Shown piece by piece: positions 7,904-48,988 of a stretch of DNA of 64,000 nt (the stretch's first letter is position 1; each line of letters opens with the position of its first letter). The translations under genes and the position numbers were made by a program. A model generated the notes under the pieces. The model saw nothing but the letters and a program-made list of their open reading frames with translations. It searched no databases and had not been told where the DNA came from. Source of the DNA: Natronosalvus rutilus (GTDB lineage: Archaea; Halobacteriota; Halobacteria; Halobacteriales; Natrialbaceae). The stretch spans positions 1,407,451 to 1,471,450 of the forward strand of contig NZ_CP100355.1 in the NCBI RefSeq assembly GCF_024204665.1. The letters are read 5' to 3'.

Positions 7904-8806
7904 ATGGTGCGGAACGTCGCCGAGCTGTTGGCGGAACTCGAGTCCGAGGACTTCTATCTCCTCTCGGGAATCGAGCAGGGAATGCGCTTCTCGGAGTGGG
8001 TCCAGCGCGAGAAGCTATCGAACTTCTCGGGACTCACCCCTGAAGAGGTGGACTACCGCCTCGAGCGCTGTCTCAAGCGCGGGCTAGTAGAGAAGAAGAC
8101 GATCCAGTACGAGGGGTACACCCTCCAGTTCGAGGGCTACGACGCCCTCGCCCTTCGTGCACTCGTCGAGCGCGATACGATCTCGGAGTTCGGCGCCCCG
8201 CTGGGCGTCGGCAAGGAGAGCGACGTCTACGAGGTCAAATCCTACAAGCCGCTAGCCCTGAAGTACCACCGAGAGGGCTATACCAACTTCCGGGAGGTCA
8301 ACCGCGAGCGCGATTACACCTCGGAAAATCAGCACGTGTCCTGGCTCTACACCGCCCGGAAAGCGGCTGAACGGGAGTTTGACGCCCTCGAGACGCTGTA
8401 CCCCGACGTCTCGGTGCCTCAGCCGATCGACCAGAACCGACACGCCATCGTGATGGAGAAGATGCCAGGGGTGGAACTCTCGCGAACCCGATTCGAGGAC
8501 GACCAGGTGCTGGGAGTGCTGGAGTTACTCTTGCGAGAACTCTCATGCGCGTACGAGGAGGGGTACGTCCACGCGGACATGAGCGAGTACAACGTGTTCG
8601 TCGCCGAGGAGGGGGTGACGATCTTCGACTGGCCGCAGGCGGTGCCGACCGATCACGAACACGCTCGCGAGTTCCTGGATCGCGACCTCACGAATCTGGT
8701 GGGGTACTTCCGGCGGAAATATCCGTCAGTCGTGCCTGAGGACCTCGAGAGCGACGCGATTGCTGCTGAGATCGCCACCGGAGAGTTCGACTCATTGTCG
8801 GCGTAG
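7904..8806 (+). CDS. rio2: RIO2-type serine/threonine protein kinase
   Basis: A 300-residue archaeal RIO2 kinase/ATPase, known to act in maturation of the small ribosomal subunit. An N-terminal winged helix (1-80; EDFYLLSGIEQGMRFSEW) precedes the kinase core, which has GVGKESDVYEV as nucleotide loop, LKYHREG with the ATP lysine, the catalytic loop HADMSEYNVFV and the metal-binding IFDWPQ. The ATG at 7904 matches the family N-terminus (MVRNVAEL). However, a TATA-like TTTATC at 7834-7839 is better spaced for a leaderless in-frame GTG at 7868, which would add 12 residues. The start is therefore uncertain. Confidence 0.9.
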   Translation: MVRNVAELLAELESEDFYLLSGIEQGMRFSEWVQREKLSNFSGLTPEEVDYRLERCLKRGLVEKKTIQYEGYTLQFEGYDALALRALVERDTISEFGAPLGVGKESDVYEVKSYKPLALKYHREGYTNFREVNRERDYTSENQHVSWLYTARKAAEREFDALETLYPDVSVPQPIDQNRHAIVMEKMPGVELSRTRFEDDQVLGVLELLLRELSCAYEEGYVHADMSEYNVFVAEEGVTIFDWPQAVPTDHEHAREFLDRDLTNLVGYFRRKYPSVVPEDLESDAIAAEIATGEFDSLSA

Positions 8807-27707: not shown

Positions 27708-27836
27708 TCAGTCGGATTCTCGTTTCTGTGCTAAATGCTCCCACACTTCGGTACACCCGCACCCATCAGCAACGTCCGCTAAGTGTTGATCGTCTCGTTC
27801 GTCCTCGGCCAGGGTTTCGTCGTCCGTATCTGTCAT
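27708..27836 (-). CDS. 42-residue CGCG-motif small protein
   Basis: From the ATG at 27836 to TGA at 27708 the frame encodes a 42-residue acidic protein with DVADGCGCTEVWEHL in its second half. I recall very similar very small proteins annotated as hypothetical in other haloarchaea, with the DGCGCTE core conserved. The cysteine pair may bind metal as a dimer. It is divergent from the sugar-nucleotide operon, and one of the two TrmB-like operators ends 2 nt before its start codon. Confidence 0.6.
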   Translation of the reverse strand: MTDTDDETLAEDERDDQHLADVADGCGCTEVWEHLAQKRESD

Positions 27837-27838
27837 GG

Positions 27839-27855
27839 TACTCAGTTTCTGAGTA
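27839..27855. promoter_or_regulatory. TrmB-type operator site A
   Basis: TACTCAG-TTT-CTGAGTA is a perfect 17-bp inverted repeat matching TACT-N8-GAGTA. It lies directly before the start of the 42-residue protein gene (minus strand). Confidence 0.6.
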
Positions 27856-27915
27856 ACTCAATTCTCCACGAGGTCTTAGTACTTTCCCTCGGTCTCGCAG
27901 GCGATGGCAGAAGCA

Positions 27916-27923
27916 TTATATGG
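27916..27923 (+). promoter_or_regulatory. TATA box of the sugar-nucleotide operon
   Basis: TTATATGG is centred about 28 nt upstream of the ATG at 27948, predicting a leaderless transcript. Confidence 0.65.
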
Positions 27924-27927
27924 TAGA

Positions 27928-27944
27928 TACTCAAATTATGAGTA
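27928..27944. promoter_or_regulatory. TrmB-type operator site B
   Basis: TACTCA-AATTA-TGAGTA is a 17-bp inverted repeat matching TACT-N8-GAGTA. It fills the space between TATA box and start codon of the 27948 gene, a position expected to block initiation when occupied. Confidence 0.65.
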
Positions 27945-27947
27945 ACT

Positions 27948-29117
27948 ATGTCGATACTGGTTACGGGCGGCGACGGATATCTCGGCTGGCCTACCGCATT
28001 GCGCATCGCATCGCGAACCGACGACCGCGTGGTCCTGGTCGATAACTTCGCGAGGAGAGAGTGGGTAGAGTCCGTCGGGTCGACGACAGCGGTACCGATC
28101 GCGGATATCGATGCGCGACTGGAGGCGGCCGAAGAAGCGCTCGGTCTCGAGAACCTCTCCTTCGTCGAGGGTGATTTGACCGACAGAGCATTCGTCGACC
28201 AGCTGCTCTCGGTTCACGAACCCGAGACGATCGTCCATACCGCCGCACAACCGTCCGCGCCATATTCGCAGATCAACGGTGAGCGGGCAAACTACACGCA
28301 GCACAACAACATGCAGGCGACGCGGAATCTGCTCTGGGGGCTGCACGAAGCCGGGCTTTCGGACACCCACTTCATCGAAACGACGACGACCGGCGTCTAC
28401 GGGGCGCCCAGGTTCCCGATTCCGGAGGGCGGGGCGACGATGGAAAACCAGGGCGAGCGAGACGACGTCCCGTTCCCGGCGATGGCCGGTAGCTGGTACC
28501 ACCTGACGAAATCGCACGACGCAGCCAACATGCGCCTCGCACACAAGCAGTTCGACATTCCAATTTCGGACGTGCGAACGGCGATCACGTACGGTACCGA
28601 AACCAAAGAGACTGCAGCACACCCCGACCTGGCGACCCGGTTCGACTTCGATTACTACTTCGGGGTCGTTACCCACCGATTCTGTGCACAGGCCGTCGCT
28701 GGCTATCCGATGACCGTGTACGGGAAAGGCGAACAGCGAAAGCCGTTCATCGCCCTCGAGGACGCGGCCGAAGGGTTGGCGCGTCTCGCCCTCGAGGAGA
28801 CCAACCACGACGGCCTCGCGGTCTACAATCAGGTAACTCGAGCGATCAGTATCGTCGAGATCGCAGAAACCATCGCCTCCGTCGCCCACGAGTTCGATCT
28901 CGACGTCGACGTCGAACACTTCGAAAACCCGCGCGAGGAGGACGAGACGCACAAAATGGAGATCGAACACGACCGCTACGCGGACCTGATCGACGGCCAG
29001 TCGACGACGTTCGAGGACGGCGTCAGACAGATTCTCGGAACGTTGGTCGATCACGAACGGACGGTCACGTCCCACGAAGATCGGTTCCTCCCCGGCGTCC
29101 TGACGTCTGATGACTGA
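27948..29117 (+). CDS. UDP-sulfoquinovose synthase-like NAD-dependent sugar-nucleotide enzyme (SQD1/Agl3 family)
   Basis: A 389-residue extended SDR enzyme. It shares the diagnostic SQD1/Agl3 signatures: GGDGYLGWPTAL (7-18), VDNFARR (31-37), QPSAPYS (101-107), a Thr-rich strand (145-148) and YHLTK (184-188; catalytic Tyr/Lys). Relatives add sulfite to UDP-glucose to make UDP-sulfoquinovose, used for sulfolipid or, in Sulfolobus, S-layer glycan. It heads an operon with two more SDR genes and should supply a modified sugar donor for surface glycan. The exact product is inferred. Confidence 0.82.
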   Translation: MSILVTGGDGYLGWPTALRIASRTDDRVVLVDNFARREWVESVGSTTAVPIADIDARLEAAEEALGLENLSFVEGDLTDRAFVDQLLSVHEPETIVHTAAQPSAPYSQINGERANYTQHNNMQATRNLLWGLHEAGLSDTHFIETTTTGVYGAPRFPIPEGGATMENQGERDDVPFPAMAGSWYHLTKSHDAANMRLAHKQFDIPISDVRTAITYGTETKETAAHPDLATRFDFDYYFGVVTHRFCAQAVAGYPMTVYGKGEQRKPFIALEDAAEGLARLALEETNHDGLAVYNQVTRAISIVEIAETIASVAHEFDLDVDVEHFENPREEDETHKMEIEHDRYADLIDGQSTTFEDGVRQILGTLVDHERTVTSHEDRFLPGVLTSDD

Positions 29118-30060
29118 TCTGCACGTCCTCGTGACGGGCGGCTGTGGGTACATCGGGAGCGAACTCGTTTCGCTCCTCCTCGAGGAGGAAGCCGTGGGGA
29201 CCGTCAGCGTCCTGGATTCGCTGACGACTGGCTCCCCGTCGAACCTCGCCGGGCGCATCGATGACGTTCAGTTTCGACGCGGCGACGTCCGCGAGTACGG
29301 TGACGTCGAGAACGCGATGCGCGACGTCGATCGCGTAATCCATCTCGCGGCAATTACCGGTGCAGCGTCGACGCACGACCGCCGCGAGGAGACGTTCGCG
29401 GTCAACTACCTCGGAACGGAGAACGTACTCACGGCTGCCGGGAAGTTCGACGTCGAACACGTCGTCTTCGCCTCGTCGTGTAACAACTACGGGCGTACCG
29501 CGAGCACCGACATCGACGAAACGACCGACCAGGACCCGCTCAATCCGTACGCGGAGTCCAAGGTCGAGTCCGAGGCGTTGCTTCGCAAGGCAATCGACGA
29601 GTACGGGTTCGACGGGACGGCACTCCGAATGAGCACGAACTACGGCTGGTCGCCGGGTGTTCGTTTCAACCTGGTCATCAACCACTTCGTGTTCCGAGCG
29701 CTCACCGACCGACCACTTACCGTCTACGGTGACGGGAGTAACTGGCGCCCGTTTATTCACGTGAAAGATGCCGCGAGAGCCTACGCACACGCCGCGCTGG
29801 ACCCGAACTCGTGGCCACAACTGGTCTACAACGTGGGGGCGAACGACCAGAACTACCAGATCGCCACTATCGCGGAGCTCGTTCGAGACGAACTCGATCG
29901 GGAACTCGATATCACGTACCTCGAGGACGAGCACCCGGGGCCGTCGTATCACGTGAGCTTCGACCGGTTATCGGAAACCGGCTTCGAGTCGGAATGGACT
30001 GTACGAGAGGGAATTTCGGATCTGGCGGACCGGCTACAACGATCACATCCGAGGCAATGA
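29110..30060 (+). CDS. NAD-dependent sugar-nucleotide epimerase/dehydratase
   Basis: A 316-residue extended SDR. It has the Rossmann motif GGCGYIG (10-16), the active-site strand VVFASSCNNYG and catalytic NPYAESK. RPFIHVKDAARAYAHA is typical of GalE/RmlB relatives. It overlaps the upstream gene by 8 nt and is 4 nt from the next, so it is cotranscribed. Whether it epimerises, dehydrates or reduces a nucleotide sugar cannot be told. Confidence 0.85.
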   Translation: MTDLHVLVTGGCGYIGSELVSLLLEEEAVGTVSVLDSLTTGSPSNLAGRIDDVQFRRGDVREYGDVENAMRDVDRVIHLAAITGAASTHDRREETFAVNYLGTENVLTAAGKFDVEHVVFASSCNNYGRTASTDIDETTDQDPLNPYAESKVESEALLRKAIDEYGFDGTALRMSTNYGWSPGVRFNLVINHFVFRALTDRPLTVYGDGSNWRPFIHVKDAARAYAHAALDPNSWPQLVYNVGANDQNYQIATIAELVRDELDRELDITYLEDEHPGPSYHVSFDRLSETGFESEWTVREGISDLADRLQRSHPRQ

Positions 30061-30064
30061 TACT

Positions 30065-31072
30065 ATGACGAATCAACGATCATCTATGCGAGACGACACG
30101 AACGAACCACCGACGATTGCCGTCACCGGTGCAGCCGGATTCATCGGCAGCCGCGTCCTTCATCTGCTGGAACAAACACACCCCGAGTGGTCCGTTCACG
30201 CGATCGATAACCAGTACCGGGGCCAGGTTTCTGCAGTCGGCTCGGTCGACATCGAACACGTCGACATTCGAGACCGTCACCGTCTGGAATCGGCACTCGA
30301 CGGAGCGGACATCGTGCTCCACCTAGCTGCGGTCAGTGGGGTCGACGACTGCGATACCAATCGCGACCTCGCCTACGACGTCAACGTCACCGGAACGAAC
30401 GACGTCGCGTGGTTCTGTCGAAAAAACGGAGCCGCGCTCGTCTTCCCGTTTAGCATGGCCGTTCTCGGCGACCCCGACACGTTCCCGATTACGGCGGACG
30501 ACCCACGGAACCCGCTCAACTGGTACGGCCGAACCAAGCTCCTCGGAGAACGCGCGATCGACACGCTGGCCGACGGCGCGTTTCCGGCCCACCTGTTCCT
30601 CAAGTCGAACCTCTATGGCGATCACGTGGTCGACGGCACGGTCGTCTCGAAACCGACGGTGATCAACTTCTTCGTCGACCGAGCCACGTCGAACGAGCCG
30701 TTGACGGTGTACGAACCGGGCACCCAGTCGAGAAACTTCGTTCACGTCAAAGACGTTGCCAGGGCGTACATCCACAGCTGCGAACGACTGCTCGAGCAAC
30801 TTGAGGCGGGCGATACCGGGACCGAGATTTACGAGATAGCCGGTACCGAGGATCCCTCCGTGATGACGGTCGCGGAAACTGTCCAGGCGATCGCCCGGGA
30901 GGAACTGAACGTCGACGTCGACGTCGAACTCGTCGAAAACCCCCGAAGCGGCGAAACGATGGTCGAAAGTTTCACCGTCGACACGTCGAAAGCAGACGAA
31001 CATCTGGGATGGTCACCACGACACACTATCGAAGAATCGGTTCGAGAGCTCCTGCAGCGAGCAGAGCATTGA
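30065..31072 (+). CDS. NAD-dependent sugar-nucleotide epimerase/dehydratase
   Basis: A 335-residue extended SDR, third of the run. It has GAAGFIG (22-28), the active-site serine in FPFSMAVLGDP and Tyr/Lys in NWYGRTK. SRNFVHVKDVARAYIHS follows. Two starts are possible (30065 or 30086). The former is kept because it lies 4 nt after the previous stop. It is distinct in sequence from the two upstream SDRs, so the operon may carry successive steps of one pathway. Confidence 0.83.
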   Translation: MTNQRSSMRDDTNEPPTIAVTGAAGFIGSRVLHLLEQTHPEWSVHAIDNQYRGQVSAVGSVDIEHVDIRDRHRLESALDGADIVLHLAAVSGVDDCDTNRDLAYDVNVTGTNDVAWFCRKNGAALVFPFSMAVLGDPDTFPITADDPRNPLNWYGRTKLLGERAIDTLADGAFPAHLFLKSNLYGDHVVDGTVVSKPTVINFFVDRATSNEPLTVYEPGTQSRNFVHVKDVARAYIHSCERLLEQLEAGDTGTEIYEIAGTEDPSVMTVAETVQAIAREELNVDVDVELVENPRSGETMVESFTVDTSKADEHLGWSPRHTIEESVRELLQRAEH

Positions 31073-31151: not shown

Positions 31152-32003
31152 ATGGGGACCGAGCCAACCGATTTGCTACAGGAACTAGAATTAAAAGAGT
31201 ACGAGGCGACGGCACTCGAGCATCTCTTGAGCGCCGGGCGGACGACTGCACCGGACATCGCCAAGGCGACGGGCATTCCCAAGGCTCGCGTGTACGGCGT
31301 TCTCGAATCGCTCGCGAATTACGGGTTCATCAAGGTGATTCCTGGCCGGCCGAAGCAGTATCAACCGAAATCCCCAGAAACCGTTCTCGAGCGGGCGAAG
31401 GAGAATCGCCGACAGGAGTACGAAGACTACTGTACCGAGCTCGATTCCATCGAGTCGACGTTTCTGGAGACGTTCGAGCCCCTGTACGAGCAAGCGAACG
31501 AAGACGTAACGCCGACGTCGGAACTCTTTCACGTCGTCGACGTCGGCGACCCGAGCGAGACGGAGACGCGTCAGCTCTACCAGAACGCGGCCGAAACCGT
31601 CTACGTGATTACAAACAGCTTCGCTTACTTCGAGGACATCGAAACGACGGTCGAAACCGCGCTCGAGCGAGGACTCGAGGTTTCGGTGTTGTTCCTCGAT
31701 CCCCGTAAGCTTCCGCCGGAGAAGGCAGCGGTACAGGCGGATATCGTCGAGCGAATTGCCTCCGAGTATCCTGCCATCCGATATCGATTCAGCGAGGAGG
31801 TACTGCCCTGGCGCGGTACCTTCATCGATCCGAGTATGGACTACGATTCGGGCAAGGCGATTTTTCTGGTCGAGGAGACCGACATTCCCAACCACCGGCG
31901 GCAGGCCGCAATTACGGAGAACGGGTCGTTCGTCGCAGGTATGAAGCGGTATTTCGATTTGATCTGGAGCTACGAGAGTCTCGAGTCGCGGCCATCTATT
32001 TGA
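31152..32003 (+). CDS. TrmB-family transcriptional regulator
   Basis: A 283-residue regulator. The N-terminal winged helix (about 5-75) reads LELKEYEATALEHLLSAGRTTAPDIAKATGIPKARVYGVLESL, a classic TrmB-family HTH. A short coiled-coil (about 85-115) follows, then a C-terminal domain with AETVYVITNSF and VSVLFLDPRKLPP, which resembles TrmB/PLD-like effector regions. It starts 79 nt after the SDR operon and may bind the TACT-N8-GAGTA sites at its head. The ATG at 31152 is preferred over a TTG at 31074. The sugar or other ligand is unknown. Confidence 0.88.
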   Translation: MGTEPTDLLQELELKEYEATALEHLLSAGRTTAPDIAKATGIPKARVYGVLESLANYGFIKVIPGRPKQYQPKSPETVLERAKENRRQEYEDYCTELDSIESTFLETFEPLYEQANEDVTPTSELFHVVDVGDPSETETRQLYQNAAETVYVITNSFAYFEDIETTVETALERGLEVSVLFLDPRKLPPEKAAVQADIVERIASEYPAIRYRFSEEVLPWRGTFIDPSMDYDSGKAIFLVEETDIPNHRRQAAITENGSFVAGMKRYFDLIWSYESLESRPSI

Positions 32004-32073
32004 ACGATTACAAATCTTACCCGAAGCCACTGGACCGCGAGATATTTAGCCAAGTCTTCAGCATACTCAAACG

Positions 32074-33198
32074 ATGCGTATCCTCTATCTCACCGAGGAG
32101 CCTATTTCTTTCTCCGATGCGATGGTACGAGGTGGGGCGATACACGTCCGAAATGTCGTTTCAGGACTTCGAAAGGGAGGACACGACGTTTATCTTCTCG
32201 ACTGGAACTCCGAACCGGAACGTTCGTTTCAGGATTCGGTCGATCCTCGGACCCGATTCGTCGAAGGGCCTCTCAGAACGCTCATTCGAGCGATTCGAAT
32301 CGGACGGGGGCGTGCCATCGACGTCATCATCTCGAAGACCCGGAAAACGTATCTTCCGGGACTGCTCGCGGCACGGAATCTCGGCGTACCTCACGTCGTC
32401 CACGTCGGCTCGAGCCTCGATCCGCCGGTGGAGAGCCTCTTCAGACGGCTGGATTTAGCGTCTTTCAAAGTGCGGCTTCGTACACCTCACGATGGATACT
32501 TCGTGGTCTGTGACCACATCGGTTCCCAGCTCCAATCGTACGGTGTCAACGGCGGCCGTATCTTCAATATACGTAACGCAGTCGACGTAGATAGATTCAA
32601 CCCGGAATCAGCGCCGATTCCACTTTCTAGCCGGTTCGAACGCCTGGTTAGCGGTTCTGAAAGCGACCTCCGTTTGGGCTACGTTGGTGGACTCCAGCCG
32701 TACAAAGGCCTCGCTGACCTCGCCACCGCCCTCGAGTCGGCCGATGCCGACTGCGACCTGATCGTTGCCGGTGATGGCCCGGAACGAACACACCTCGAGC
32801 AGATTTTCGGAGAAACGGCCACGTTCCTCGGGTCGGTGCCATACGAGCAGATTCCCTCACTGTATCACGAGTTCGACGCGTTCGTTCTTCCCTCCCATAC
32901 TGAGGGGCTTCCGCGAGTAATCCTCGAGGCGCAGGCGACGGCAACGCCAGTCGTGGCTACTCGAGTTGGCGGGGTCCCGGAAATCGTTCAGGACGGCGAG
33001 ACGGGGCTGCTCTGTGATTCCCATCGACCGGACCAACTGACGACGGCGATTGATCGCCTCGCAACGAACGAACGCGACCGTGAGCGCCTCGGCGAGAACG
33101 GTCGAACGGCCGTCGAAGAGGGGTTCTCCTGGGACGAGTTGTATGATAGATATGAACGTGCTCTTCGACAGGTAATTGGGTGGTCAGATGAGCGATAG
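32074..33198 (+). CDS. GT4-family glycosyltransferase
   Basis: A 374-residue GT-B enzyme. The N-terminal domain carries MVRGGAIHVRNVVSGLRKGGHDV, and the C-terminal domain has LGYVGGLQPYKG, VAGDGPER and the donor-binding EGLPRVILEA. It probably transfers a nucleotide-activated sugar to a lipid-linked glycan on the cytoplasmic face. A TATA-like ATATTTAG sits about 27 nt before the ATG. It overlaps the flippase gene by 11 nt. Confidence 0.88.
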   Translation: MRILYLTEEPISFSDAMVRGGAIHVRNVVSGLRKGGHDVYLLDWNSEPERSFQDSVDPRTRFVEGPLRTLIRAIRIGRGRAIDVIISKTRKTYLPGLLAARNLGVPHVVHVGSSLDPPVESLFRRLDLASFKVRLRTPHDGYFVVCDHIGSQLQSYGVNGGRIFNIRNAVDVDRFNPESAPIPLSSRFERLVSGSESDLRLGYVGGLQPYKGLADLATALESADADCDLIVAGDGPERTHLEQIFGETATFLGSVPYEQIPSLYHEFDAFVLPSHTEGLPRVILEAQATATPVVATRVGGVPEIVQDGETGLLCDSHRPDQLTTAIDRLATNERDRERLGENGRTAVEEGFSWDELYDRYERALRQVIGWSDER

Positions 33199-34711
33199 CG
33201 ACCAGGCAATTCGAGACGTGGTCAAAGGCGCGAGCGTCATCTACGTTGGGCTGTTTCTTGAGTTGGTTATCGCATTTGTAGCGCAGGTGCTGGCTGCGAG
33301 ATACCTCTCGGTTAGTGGATTCGGGGGATTAACGACCGGGACTGCGCTTTTAAACGTAGGCGCAATAATTGGAGGGCTTGGATTAGCCTCCGGTTTGGTA
33401 CGGTACCTCCCCCGCGTAGATGATTCGGAAAAACGCGCGCTTACCCAGTTTGCGTTTAGTGTGGTTGCGATAGCCTCTCTGCCATTAGGCCTACTGGTTT
33501 CACTCAACGCAGAATTCGTCGCAGCGACCATCTTCGACGACCCGACAGTTGAGGCGAGCATTAGAGTCTTTGGGGCAGCAATTCCATTCGCTGCCCTTCT
33601 TAACGTCGCACTAAGCGGTTTACGTGGACAATCTGAGTCAGCTCGACACGCGTTTGTTCAGAACATTCTGCATACCAGCGTCCGGCTAGTGCTTATCATC
33701 ACCGCGGTCACTTTCAGCCTCGGCCAGTTTGGATTTGCCGCTGCATACGCGATACCGTATGCCATCAGTCTCGTTGCCGCAGCCTATTTCCTTTATCGTG
33801 CGCTTCCAGAAGTTTCGGAATCGCTTGACCAGGACAGGAGATCCGACGTGTTTCGATACTCCCTCCCATTCACTATTACCGAACTTTCGAGCTTCATATA
33901 CAGAAGTATTGATATATTCCTCGTACTTCGTTTTTTGGGGAGCGCAGCGGTTGGAGTGTACGGAGTCGCGTACGCAGCTGTAGGTTTTATGCAAATGTTC
34001 TCTACTGCCTTTAATTTTATCGGAACACCGATGGCAAGCCGGCTCGAGGGTGAAGGAGATGTCTCGGGGATGATTAAGGTTTATCGATCGATAACCCGAT
34101 GGCTAGCAATTGCAAGCGTATGTGCCTTTTTCCCCCTCGGTGTGTTCTCTACGGAGTTCATTAGCGTAATTTACGGTGGGGAGTATGCTGAAGGAGGATT
34201 AGTCCTCACGATTCTGGCAATCGGGTACGCCACCAGTAACGTCCTGAACGTCCACGGGTCGCTCCTACGGGCACTTGGAAAGTCGAAGCTTCTCTCTTTC
34301 AACAGTGCCGCTGCGGCTGTCTCGAATGTCGCATTTAACATCGTATTGATTCCTACTCTCGGTATCATGGGTGCTGCCATTGCTACAGTGGTATCGTTTA
34401 TTATCCGTGATGGGATGGCAGCAATACAAATCCACTACTACGCTAATCGAACACCTCTTTCCAGAGCGACGTTAATTCCTGTTTTAATATCACTTCCGTT
34501 TGTTACCCTCGCGGTACTCATGAGGCCTATTATCCCGGTTTCGTTCGTCTTTCTCGTCCTTATTTCTGGAATATTTTCGGTAGCATATGTACTGGTCATT
34601 TTATCGATTACTGGACTCTCCCAGTATGAAATAATGATTCTCAGATCGATTGAGGAGAAGTATGAGATAGATCCCCGGATGCTCGATATATTGATAAACC
34701 GATTCTCATGA
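33188..34711 (+). CDS. Wzx-type lipid-linked oligosaccharide flippase
   Basis: A 507-residue protein of the MATE/Wzx (polysaccharide biosynthesis) superfamily with about 14 membrane segments. It begins RDVVKGASVIYVGLFLELVIAFVAQVLAAR, as haloarchaeal flippases do, and it has LRGQSESARHAFVQNI and LNVHGSLLRALGKSKL loops. It should move lipid-linked glycan across the membrane for AglB or a polymerase. Base composition is visibly more AT-rich than neighbouring genes, suggesting acquisition. The ATG at 33188 overlaps the GT4 gene. Confidence 0.86.
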   Translation: MSDSDQAIRDVVKGASVIYVGLFLELVIAFVAQVLAARYLSVSGFGGLTTGTALLNVGAIIGGLGLASGLVRYLPRVDDSEKRALTQFAFSVVAIASLPLGLLVSLNAEFVAATIFDDPTVEASIRVFGAAIPFAALLNVALSGLRGQSESARHAFVQNILHTSVRLVLIITAVTFSLGQFGFAAAYAIPYAISLVAAAYFLYRALPEVSESLDQDRRSDVFRYSLPFTITELSSFIYRSIDIFLVLRFLGSAAVGVYGVAYAAVGFMQMFSTAFNFIGTPMASRLEGEGDVSGMIKVYRSITRWLAIASVCAFFPLGVFSTEFISVIYGGEYAEGGLVLTILAIGYATSNVLNVHGSLLRALGKSKLLSFNSAAAAVSNVAFNIVLIPTLGIMGAAIATVVSFIIRDGMAAIQIHYYANRTPLSRATLIPVLISLPFVTLAVLMRPIIPVSFVFLVLISGIFSVAYVLVILSITGLSQYEIMILRSIEEKYEIDPRMLDILINRFS

Positions 34712-45925: not shown

Positions 45926-48900
45926 ATGAGTACTGACACTGAACACGTCGACGAGGGAACCGAAACGCCCTCCACCCTCGAGACGTGGCAGGAGTGGTAT
46001 CACCTTCCCCTCCTCGGGCTGGTGATACTATTCATGCTGTGGACTCGCCTCCGGTCCTACGAGAACTTCGTCGCCGACGGCTCGCCGCGTTTGTCCGGCG
46101 TCGACTCGTGGTATCACTGGCGGACGATCCGGTGGACCGCCGAGAATTATCCATTCACGATGCCTTATGAGGTCTATACTGGTTACCCTACAGGGACCTA
46201 CGTCGGCCACTTCGGTACGCTATTCGACCAGCTTATCGTCACGGCGGCGATGATCGTCGGTCTCGGAAATCCTTCCCCTGAAACCCTCTACATGGTTGCT
46301 CTCGTGTCCATCCCGCTGATGGGCGCGCTCACTGCGATTCCCGTCTTCTACATGGGCCGTCGACTCGGCGGGACCATCGGTGGACTCGTCTCGATCGTCC
46401 TCCTCGCGCTCGTGCCTGGCTCGTTCTTCTACCGATCGGCCGTTGGTCAGCTCGACCACCACATTGGCGAAGCGCTGTTCATGGCGATTGCGGTCCTCGC
46501 AATGATGGTTGCTGTCCGGGCCGGCGAACGCGACCGGCCGATCTACGAACTCGTCGTCGACCGCGACTGGGACGCCCTTCATCGCCCGACGATCTACTCG
46601 GTCCTTGCCGGTCTCGCACTCACGCTGTTCATCTGGGTCTGGCCTTCGGCGGTATTGTTGATCGGTATCTTCGGCGTCTTCTTCTGCATCCAGCTCTGTG
46701 TCGACTACATTCGAGGAATTTCCCCCGACCACGTCGCCTTCGTCGGTGCCGTCAGCCTCGGTGTGACGGCAATCGGATCCGTGCTCCTGTTCGAACAGTG
46801 GTCCAGCAGCGTCTCCGACTTCGGCTACCTCCAGCCGACACTCGCGCTGGCTGTCGCATTTGGCTGCGTGTTCATGGCCTGGCTCGCCCGCCAGTGGGAC
46901 GACCTCGAGGTCAACCGCAATTATTACCCGGCTGCGATCGCCGGCCTCCTGATCGTTGGACTCGGCACGATGGCAGTTCTGATACCTGATCTCTACGACA
47001 CCGTGATTAACAACCTCACGAGCCGACTCCTGCCGCTTGACCCCTCGACTGGGGCACTCACCGTTTCGGAGGCCCAGCCCCCGGACGACTTCACGCAATA
47101 CGTGTTCAACGAGTTCGGGGCCGCGTTCTTCACCATGCTCGGCGGACTCGCGTTCCTCCTGCTCCGTCCGCTGTTCGGACGCGAGTGGCGCGCGGAGTAC
47201 ACCCTCGTGATCGTCTGGTCGCTGTTCCTGATCAGCATGGCGTCGACCCAGACCCGATTCTCCTACTACCTCGCGGTCGCGGTCGCGGTCGTCAACGCGG
47301 TCTTCGTCGCTGACATCGCCCGCGTCCTCAGCCTGGATTTCCATCGAACGGCCGACTCGATTCGCGACGTCGAGACCTACCAAGTGATCGCGATCGTCCT
47401 CGTCGTCGTGATGCTGTTCATGCCCCTGCTCCCGCCGATCGCCGCTGACGGCGCGACCACCTGGGAGCGCGGCGAGAACGTCGGCCCGAGTGGCGACGCG
47501 ATGACCTGGGACGAGTCGACCCAGTGGCTCCTCGAGAGCACGCCCGAACCCGGAAACTGGGCGGGCGCGGGCAACCAGAGCGAACTCGAGTACTACGGAA
47601 CCTACGACCGTCCCGCCGACGGCGACTTCGACTATCCGGGCGGTTCCTATGGCGTGATGTCCTGGTGGGACTACGGCCACCTGATCACGACCAATGGCGA
47701 GCGCATCCCGCACTCGAACCCGTTCCAGCAGAACGCCCGATCGTCCTCGTGGTACCTACTGGCCGGGGAGGAGTCTCACGGTGAGGCCATCCTCGACGGT
47801 ATCGCCGCGGGCGTTCCGGTGGTGAATCAGCCAGCAGAGAACATCACCGCAGAAATCGAGAGCGCCGACAGTGCCGACGAGGGTGAGATGCGCTACGTCA
47901 TGATCGACGACGAGATGGCCGGTGGGAAGTTCAGCGCGATTACCCGATGGACTGATCCGGCGTACAGTTCCTATTACGACCAGTCTCAATATCAGATTCG
48001 CGACAGCGAGGAGTCGGTCCCGGTCGCTTCCGATGCCTACTACGACACGATGCTCGCGTCCCTGTACATCGACGATGCGGAGGGAATGGATCACTACCGC
48101 CTGGTTCACGAGAGCGAACGGTACTCGATCGTTGGTGGAATGGCCCTCGGCCAGTCTATCAGACCTCACTACTCGCTTCGCCTCTCCAACCTCGGTCTCC
48201 CAGCCGGCTGGAGCGAGCAGACCGCTCAGTTCGACGCCCAGCTCGCACAGGCGGAAGCTAATAACCAGGTCTTCGGCGGTTTCGGATTCCCGATCTGGGA
48301 TGGGCATATCGTCTCGTCAGTGAAGACCTTCGAGCGCGTCGAGGGGGCGAACATCACCGGCACGGTCGACGGCGAAGTCGCCGACTCCGACCGCGTCTAC
48401 GCGCAGATCGAACTCGAGACGGAGCCGGGACGAACGTTCACTTACACGCAACAGGCCAACGTGAGCGACGACGGCACGTTCGAGTTGACGGTCCCGTACG
48501 CGACGAACGACGAGCTCGGACCGGAAGACGGCTACACCGATAGCGCGGTCGAGGCGGTCGACGAAGAGTACGAAATCTTCGTCGGGACACCCGAAGACGG
48601 CGAGATCGAGCGCCAGTACCTGGGAACCACGGCGGTCCCCGAGACAGCCGTCGTGGAGGGTGAGGACCTTGAGGTGACGCTCGAGGAAGGTGACGGCGAG
48701 ATCGTGCCAGATCCGGATGCGGAGGCACAGCCGTCCGAGGGTGAGGACGAGAACGAGACCGACGACGGTGCGGACGATGACGAGTCCAGCAACGACGGAT
48801 CGGAGAACGTCACGGACGACGGCAACGAGACGGAGACGGGTTCGGACGATGAGAACGAGACGGATGCGGGTTCGGACGCCAACAATGGAACGAACACGGA

Positions 48901-48988
48901 TTCAGACGATGAAAACGCGACGAACGAAACGAACGACACGCCGGACGCTCCTGCCCTGATGGATCCGGTAGCGCCGCGAGCGGACTGA
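45926..48988 (+). CDS. aglB: Oligosaccharyltransferase AglB
   Basis: A 1020-residue STT3-type enzyme (archaeosortase A system-associated class) that moves glycan from dolichol phosphate to Asn of N-X-S/T on exported proteins. The first external loop carries the metal Asp in SGVDSWYHW, and a second acidic loop follows in VGQLDHHIGE. About 12-13 membrane segments run to near residue 510, and WWDYG is at 580-584. The outer domain continues with beta-rich segments. The last ~90 residues are an acidic low-complexity tail with eight N-X-S/T sequons. The leaderless promoter fixes the start at 45926. Confidence 0.95.
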   Translation: MSTDTEHVDEGTETPSTLETWQEWYHLPLLGLVILFMLWTRLRSYENFVADGSPRLSGVDSWYHWRTIRWTAENYPFTMPYEVYTGYPTGTYVGHFGTLFDQLIVTAAMIVGLGNPSPETLYMVALVSIPLMGALTAIPVFYMGRRLGGTIGGLVSIVLLALVPGSFFYRSAVGQLDHHIGEALFMAIAVLAMMVAVRAGERDRPIYELVVDRDWDALHRPTIYSVLAGLALTLFIWVWPSAVLLIGIFGVFFCIQLCVDYIRGISPDHVAFVGAVSLGVTAIGSVLLFEQWSSSVSDFGYLQPTLALAVAFGCVFMAWLARQWDDLEVNRNYYPAAIAGLLIVGLGTMAVLIPDLYDTVINNLTSRLLPLDPSTGALTVSEAQPPDDFTQYVFNEFGAAFFTMLGGLAFLLLRPLFGREWRAEYTLVIVWSLFLISMASTQTRFSYYLAVAVAVVNAVFVADIARVLSLDFHRTADSIRDVETYQVIAIVLVVVMLFMPLLPPIAADGATTWERGENVGPSGDAMTWDESTQWLLESTPEPGNWAGAGNQSELEYYGTYDRPADGDFDYPGGSYGVMSWWDYGHLITTNGERIPHSNPFQQNARSSSWYLLAGEESHGEAILDGIAAGVPVVNQPAENITAEIESADSADEGEMRYVMIDDEMAGGKFSAITRWTDPAYSSYYDQSQYQIRDSEESVPVASDAYYDTMLASLYIDDAEGMDHYRLVHESERYSIVGGMALGQSIRPHYSLRLSNLGLPAGWSEQTAQFDAQLAQAEANNQVFGGFGFPIWDGHIVSSVKTFERVEGANITGTVDGEVADSDRVYAQIELETEPGRTFTYTQQANVSDDGTFELTVPYATNDELGPEDGYTDSAVEAVDEEYEIFVGTPEDGEIERQYLGTTAVPETAVVEGEDLEVTLEEGDGEIVPDPDAEAQPSEGEDENETDDGADDDESSNDGSENVTDDGNETETGSDDENETDAGSDANNGTNTDSDDENATNETNDTPDAPALMDPVAPRAD

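Follow-up and report, generated by a model that had tools for sequence, protein, structure and literature searches.

Two palindromes located between an SQD1-like operon and a divergent small-protein gene in Natronosalvus rutilus are most probably operators of the TrmBL2-like regulator encoded at 31152-32003, which would act as a local dimeric repressor for the supply of the S-layer N-glycan (probability roughly 0.82, judged from sequence comparison). In the mechanism proposed, a dimer of the regulator bound to GTTACTCA-N5-TGAGTAAC would sit over the transcription start, with the TATA box on one side and the start codon on the other, and block RNA polymerase. Repression would affect two units, namely the SQD1-SDR-SDR operon, probably for a sulfonated nucleotide sugar, and the small gene CxC, followed by aglJ in many relatives. 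Release would be brought about by a ligand of the PLD-like domain of the regulator; whereas TrmB binds a glucose-type sugar, this ligand is probably of another kind. By repressing the SQD1 operon and CxC(-aglJ) until the ligand is bound, the regulator would set the supply of the S-layer N-glycan.

Palindromes at the divergent promoters

The window, i.e. the whole 64,000-nucleotide stretch of DNA that was analysed, includes the following features at and around these promoters:

27708-27836, minus strand: 42-aa 'CxC' microprotein with the conserved core DG-[CA]-GC-x-E-[IV]-WE
27837-27857, minus strand: putative operator 1, 21-bp register GTTACTCAGAAACTGAGTACC on the minus strand; the 17-bp core ends 2 nt before the ATG (27836) of the small-protein gene
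27916-27921, plus strand: TATA-like element TTATAT of the SQD1-like promoter, read directly in the sequence
27926-27946, plus strand: putative operator 2, GATACTCAAATTATGAGTAAC; the core overlaps the site at which transcription of the SQD1-like operon is predicted to begin and ends 3 nt before the ATG (27948)
31152-32003, plus strand: TrmBL2-like regulator, proposed operator binder (PF01978, 72.2 bits, gathering threshold 25.6; AlphaFold model; operator association)
32064-32080, plus strand: possible weak third site with one mismatch, spanning the start codon of a GT4 glycosyltransferase gene

The 17-bp cores of operators 1 and 2 are inverted repeats at 27839-27855 (TACTCAGTTTCTGAGTA) and 27928-27944 (TACTCAAATTATGAGTA), respectively. 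Their sequences and positions, 2-3 nt before two divergent start codons, are exactly those described in the initial annotation, which had also correctly seen that one repeat is flanked by a TATA box and the SQD1-like start codon (TTATAT at 27916-27921, core at 27928-27944, ATG at 27948). The spacing from the TATA-like element to the centre of operator 2 is ~18-20 nt, shorter than the 22-26 nt found in orthologues.

A pattern search of the whole 4,312,161-bp genome for TACTCA-N5-TGAGTA gave exactly two perfect matches, which are the two sites described here and lie 89 bp apart; the random genome-wide occurrence that the scan suggested in the initial annotation might have revealed was not seen. 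With one mismatch allowed in the 17-bp core, four more sites were found in the genome, and with up to two mismatches the window includes 3 matches versus 0.71 expected. The third site at 32064-32080 is doubtful because the sister genome, which reads TATTCAAACAATGCGTA at that place, does not keep it, and its role as a GT4 operator was largely rejected. The remaining one-mismatch sites were rejected as targets, two being located within long ORFs and none at an evident start. A second SQD1-SDR-SDR-TrmB-CxC cluster is present in the same genome (L048, C1:1213710-1230525); its trmB copy has two in-frame TGA stops, and its SQD1 gene has only a variant operator (GTCATTCAAAACTTGAGTAAC).

Conservation of the operators across haloarchaeal genomes

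Footprinting upstream of SQD1 and CxC in orthologous loci gave the extended operator consensus GTTACTCA-N5-TGAGTAAC, and the palindrome recurs at SQD1 and CxC start codons in the loci compared across haloarchaea, regardless of the local gene order. The strict 21-bp operator was found in 114 of 392 genomes of the haloarchaeal order, with 1-3 sites per genome, and its reversed control pattern gave no matches in all 392. When one mismatch was allowed, each of 26 re-scanned genomes showed 2-3 sites, and control matches were almost nil. Perfect palindromes occur in 12 of the 125 genomes of the same family, and the sites inspected are located at SQD1 or CxC starts, with the exception of one in G107. 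The latter is a perfect 17-bp palindrome (L058, contig C37:722-738) ~850 bp from a core CxC gene, in a genome that has neither the regulator nor SQD1, and may be a chance occurrence or a relic.

All 59 distinct SQD1 promoters of trmB-bearing genomes match the operator at 13 or more of 16 positions; the operator ends 1-6 nt 5' of the ATG, and an AT-rich box is found 22-26 nt upstream of the operator centre. At CxC starts, at least 12 positions are matched in 81 of the 82 CxC-bearing trmB loci. Comparison of these promoters strongly supports the palindromes as deeply conserved operators, to which a protein is predicted to bind. No paper reporting the operator sequence was found in a search of the open-licence literature.

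In the window and in the SQD1 promoters, the operator lies downstream of TATA and over the predicted transcription start, which is the geometry of a repressor site. A repressing position had been assigned originally to the site at the SQD1-like gene, and this geometry is found in 59 of 59 SQD1 promoters, repression itself being predicted. An activator or dual regulator would be consistent with the ability of TrmB-family members to act both ways depending on the site position (PMC4158304) and with the surface glycoprotein site of genus g85, which falls within a long leader, 3' of the likely start. Such a role is rather unlikely, since the SQD1 and CxC sites occupy a position, downstream of TATA over the predicted start, that is reported to inhibit polymerase recruitment (PMC10817205).

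Association of the operator with the regulator gene

An orthologue of the window's TrmB-like gene was found in all 114 genomes with the strict operator among the 392 haloarchaeal genomes, and the strict operator in none of the 256 genomes that lack the orthologue. This comparison strongly supports the dedicated TrmB paralogue encoded at 31152, suggested in the initial annotation, as the probable partner of the sites. Fisher's test of co-occurrence gave p = 7e-77 with phylogeny ignored, a value that overstates the evidence because genomes related by descent do not count as independent observations. The orthologue was clearly separated by score from other TrmB paralogues in the 15 genomes checked (>500 bits for intact copies and 350 for a broken copy, as compared with ≤87 for the paralogues). 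Orthologues are present in 19 of the 125 same-family genomes, and 80 named loci with the orthologue come from many haloarchaeal genera.

Among the 75 operator sites listed, 44 are at SQD1 starts, 25 at CxC genes beside the regulator gene, and six elsewhere, namely at three further CxC starts and, in genus g85, 5' of a gene for a surface glycoprotein (three sites). As many as 39 of the 44 SQD1-start sites are >20 kb from the regulator gene or on another contig. In Haloarcula-like and other genera, SQD1 is distant from the regulator gene and the operator is retained; likewise, CxC genes that have moved away from the regulator gene in several genomes still bear it. As judged by these sites, conservation of the operator in trans extends across Halobacteria, a point that goes beyond the initial annotation. 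The targets proposed there, an operon for a surface-glycan precursor and a tiny conserved protein, gain support as putative targets from operator conservation at both.

An SQD1-like gene is present without the regulator in 27 sampled genomes. The best operator scores in 24 SQD1 promoters of regulator-less genomes, G018 and G020 being left out, are 7-12 of 16 and thus random-like, as compared with 13-16 of 16 when the regulator is present; the contrast is also seen inside genera g81, g55, and g54. Of the two exceptions, G018 (99% complete) has a perfect 17-bp operator before SQD1 and no regulator orthologue, which may be due to recent loss or to another binder, and G020 (83% complete) has a near-match at SQD1 and no regulator orthologue.

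Several regulator-less clusters include a GT2 enzyme in the regulator's place. The regulator-less SQD1 promoters of L092 and L095-L098 share another conserved element (GCTATCGTTCGG..CACTA..TAGCATC before the ATG), which is perhaps the site of a different regulator. In three regulator-less loci of genus g54 (L328, L332, and L333), a CxC-like frame appears to run straight into the SQD1 start, an arrangement that suggests that CxC and SQD1 form one operon there.

Predicted product of the SQD1-like operon

The genes downstream of operator 2 and the further gene relevant to glycosylation in the window are:

27948-29117, plus strand: SQD1-like SDR, a relative of UDP-sulfoquinovose synthase, encoded first in the operon (NF041015, 341 bits; PDB 1qrr SQD1, E 5e-71)
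29110-30060, plus strand: SDR2, GalE/RmlB-like epimerase/dehydratase (PF01370, 175.6 bits)
30065-31072, plus strand: SDR3, GalE/RmlD-like (PF01370, 134.9 bits)
32074-33198, plus strand: GT4 glycosyltransferase (PF00534)
33188-34711, plus strand: Wzx-type flippase, polysaccharide biosynthesis protein (PF13440, PF01943)
45926-48988, plus strand: AglB oligosaccharyltransferase (TIGR04154, 849.5 bits, cut-off 450; PF02516, PF22627, PF18079), located ~14 kb 3' of the regulator gene

The gene order is thus the SQD1-like SDR, two SDRs, the TrmB-domain gene, and then GT4 and the flippase; the location of a TrmB-family gene after the three-SDR operon (31152-32003; PF01978, 72 bits) had been recognised from the start. 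A flanking SepF gene is adjacent in this genus only, among the loci compared.

The SQD1-like protein matches the UDP-sulfoquinovose synthase equivalog NF041015 over its full length with 341 bits, which is below the cut-off of 575, and aligns over 345 residues with plant SQD1 (1qrr, E 5e-71). In the alignment with 1qrr, TTTGVYG and YHLTK keep the catalytic Thr, Tyr, and Lys of SQD1, and QPSAPYS keeps its QxSAPYS segment. The SQD1-SDR-SDR operon probably makes a sulfonated nucleotide sugar of the sulfoquinovose/sulfoquinovosamine type.

CxC microprotein and proposed link to S-layer N-glycosylation

The CxC family is present in 115 of the 125 same-family genomes, an extra copy being located at the SQD1/TrmB cluster, and the microprotein showed no Pfam or NCBIfam match. 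As to the tiny CxC protein of the initial annotation, the small conserved gene with its operator stands, but CxC is no feature of the family. A conserved metal-binding pair was rejected, as many orthologues have DGAGC and only a single Cys is conserved. A core CxC paralogue is found beside a DUF7119 gene in several genomes (L105, L106, L110, and L126), and tracing it to this neighbour gave no function.

In 35 loci, aglJ is located ≤400 nt 3' of CxC on the same strand, and in 7 it is further downstream; in the former the two genes may be co-transcribed. AglJ is the enzyme that initiates assembly of the S-layer N-glycan. In the genome studied, aglJ lies at a distance of ~260 kb, and neither a perfect operator nor one with a single mismatch accompanies it; hence the CxC-aglJ link is lineage-dependent.

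The presence of AglB in the window indicates an N-glycosylation region. In G264, the regulator gene lies between aglB and aglJ, with aglB at ~11 kb. In three species of genus g85, the third operator is a perfect one (L266, L267, and L269, positions 8001-8021) located ~320 nt 5' of a gene for an S-layer-type surface glycoprotein, and in the related genomes G208 and G246 an operator (L297, position 8001, and L299, position 179) directly precedes a type I phosphodiesterase/nucleotide pyrophosphatase gene (PF01663). The S-layer N-glycan of Haloarcula hispanica is 6-sulfo-QuiN-[Glc]-Gal, and the genes from aglB to aglJ form one cluster (PMC9943897); its 6-sulfo-quinovosamine is the type of sugar that the SQD1-like enzyme could make. 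Given the aglB/aglJ linkage, the glycoprotein operator in g85, and the Haloarcula sulfo-glycan, we infer that the operon makes a sulfonated sugar and that the regulator sets the N-glycan supply, as these findings suggest. The putative targets point to convergence on S-layer N-glycosylation, which had been missed in the initial annotation.

For a wider reading the balance tips only slightly in favour: the single dedicated regulator and its unique 21-bp operator would constitute a minimal S-layer N-glycan regulon across Halobacteria, including the sulfo-sugar operon, the aglJ step, and, in one genus, a surface glycoprotein; the CxC microprotein would be built into the pathway as a partner, either in feedback or in an accessory role. 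Haloarchaeal S-layer glycans vary with conditions. In the open-licence papers searched, no transcription factor for haloarchaeal N-glycosylation genes and no operator or regulator for the SqdB/GalE operon were found. The comparison yields a candidate gene together with an exact operator and a short list of targets; these are conserved in roughly one third of the haloarchaeal genomes sampled, among them Haloarcula species near the genetically tractable H. hispanica. It also suggests that the orphan SQD1-like operon is connected with 6-sulfo-quinovosamine in the N-glycan of Haloarcula, and it places the tiny uncharacterised CxC protein family in a functional context for the first time.

A role of the operon in sulfolipid synthesis under phosphate limitation, with a regulator sensing phosphate or lipid state, would follow the proposal for Haloquadratum walsbyi, whose SqdB and two GalE operon is so read in the genome paper (PMC1544339), and would suit the resemblance of the PLD-like domain of the regulator to phospholipase D-fold proteins. 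This is improbable, as the aglB/aglJ linkage and the sulfonated Haloarcula N-glycan favour glycoprotein over lipid, and no phosphate-regulation genes were seen among the targets.

The regulator protein

In the AlphaFold model of the putative N-glycan regulator (mean pLDDT 86, pTM 0.56), a winged HTH is combined with a coiled coil and a PLD-like domain; the low pTM makes the arrangement of these domains unreliable. The best profile and fold match is TrmBL2 (PDB 5box); the score of 48.9 bits against the TrmBL2 equivalog NF041141 is below the cut-off of 530, whereas the fold and domain order agree. The sugar-binding domain PF11495 gave no match at E 10 in four regulator orthologues. Alignment to TrmB 2f5t stops at residue 242, where the regulator ends; hence the protein has no counterpart of the ~100 C-terminal residues that bear the TrmB sugar ligands, and N305, G320, and E326 (PMC10817205) lie beyond the end of the alignment. 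The suggestion that a sugar-responsive TrmB ties these promoters to the nutrient state is thus not supported, the protein being TrmBL2-like and lacking PF11495 and the sugar-ligand region. A candidate ligand pocket is the PWRGT/DPSM segment, which is conserved in the PLD-like domain.

Both operator cores read TACT-N8-GAGTA and thus, as had been pointed out initially, formally match the TACT-N7-8-GAGTA motif of Halobacterium TrmB (PMC4158304); a 19-bp motif, palindromic in part, is likewise reported for TrmB of Haloarcula (PMC10817205). It is nonetheless very unlikely that these are sites of the canonical glucose-responsive TrmB of haloarchaea (VNG1451C/HAH_1548 type), in which case the operon would simply be under carbon-source control. 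None of the 15 published H. hispanica TrmB ChIP peaks is annotated as an SQD1-like or aglJ promoter, and this list makes canonical TrmB an unlikely binder. Moreover, its Haloarcula motif occurs 235 times, as compared with 1-3 strict operators per genome, and operator presence tracks the non-canonical orthologue, the score of which against the haloarchaeal TrmB equivalog NF047392 (39.8 bits) is below the cut-off of 500.

An RNA hairpin in the 5' leader that would control translation is hardly credible and was rejected in spite of the position of the repeat directly before the start codon, with the ATG of some CxC genes at positions 11-13 of the 17-bp core, since arm changes are one-sided and among 139 instances compensation is almost nil (six of eight pairs show none), which is what a DNA site would show, no Rfam match was found, and little of the repeat would be transcribed because the predicted start falls within it.

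Comparison with known systems

Agl3 of Sulfolobus is reportedly a UDP-sulfoquinovose synthase of N-glycosylation, an SQD1-type enzyme feeding a sulfonated sugar into the N-glycan. In contrast to Agl3, the SQD1-like protein described here is below the equivalog cut-off, and the haloarchaeal product is predicted. The SqdB and two GalE operon of H. walsbyi has a counterpart in Haloquadratum MAG loci, which have the same genes beside the regulator; the genome paper proposed sulfolipid synthesis and, in its passage on the operon, named no operator or regulator (PMC1544339).

TrmBL2 of Pyrococcus furiosus (5box, 5bpd) shares the winged HTH, coiled coil, and PLD-like domain with the regulator and likewise has no sugar-binding lobe. 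TrmBL2 is reportedly an abundant protein of chromatin, whereas the regulator is associated with a strict palindrome occurring 1-3 times per genome. Haloarchaeal TrmB (VNG1451C, HAH_1548) shares the TrmB DNA-binding domain, and the operator core fits its TACT-N7-8-GAGTA motif; unlike it, the regulator lacks PF11495 and has other predicted targets and a tiny regulon.

TrmB-family repressors with palindromic sites are already known (PMC4158304). The TGM of Thermococcales TrmBL1/Tgr, TATCAC-N5-GTGATA, also consists of two 6-bp arms and a 5-bp spacer, and its location downstream of TATA implies repression, the same geometry as found here (PMC4158304, PMC10817205). TrmBL1/Tgr differs from the system described in the arm sequence, in its glycolysis/gluconeogenesis targets, and in having known sugar ligands.
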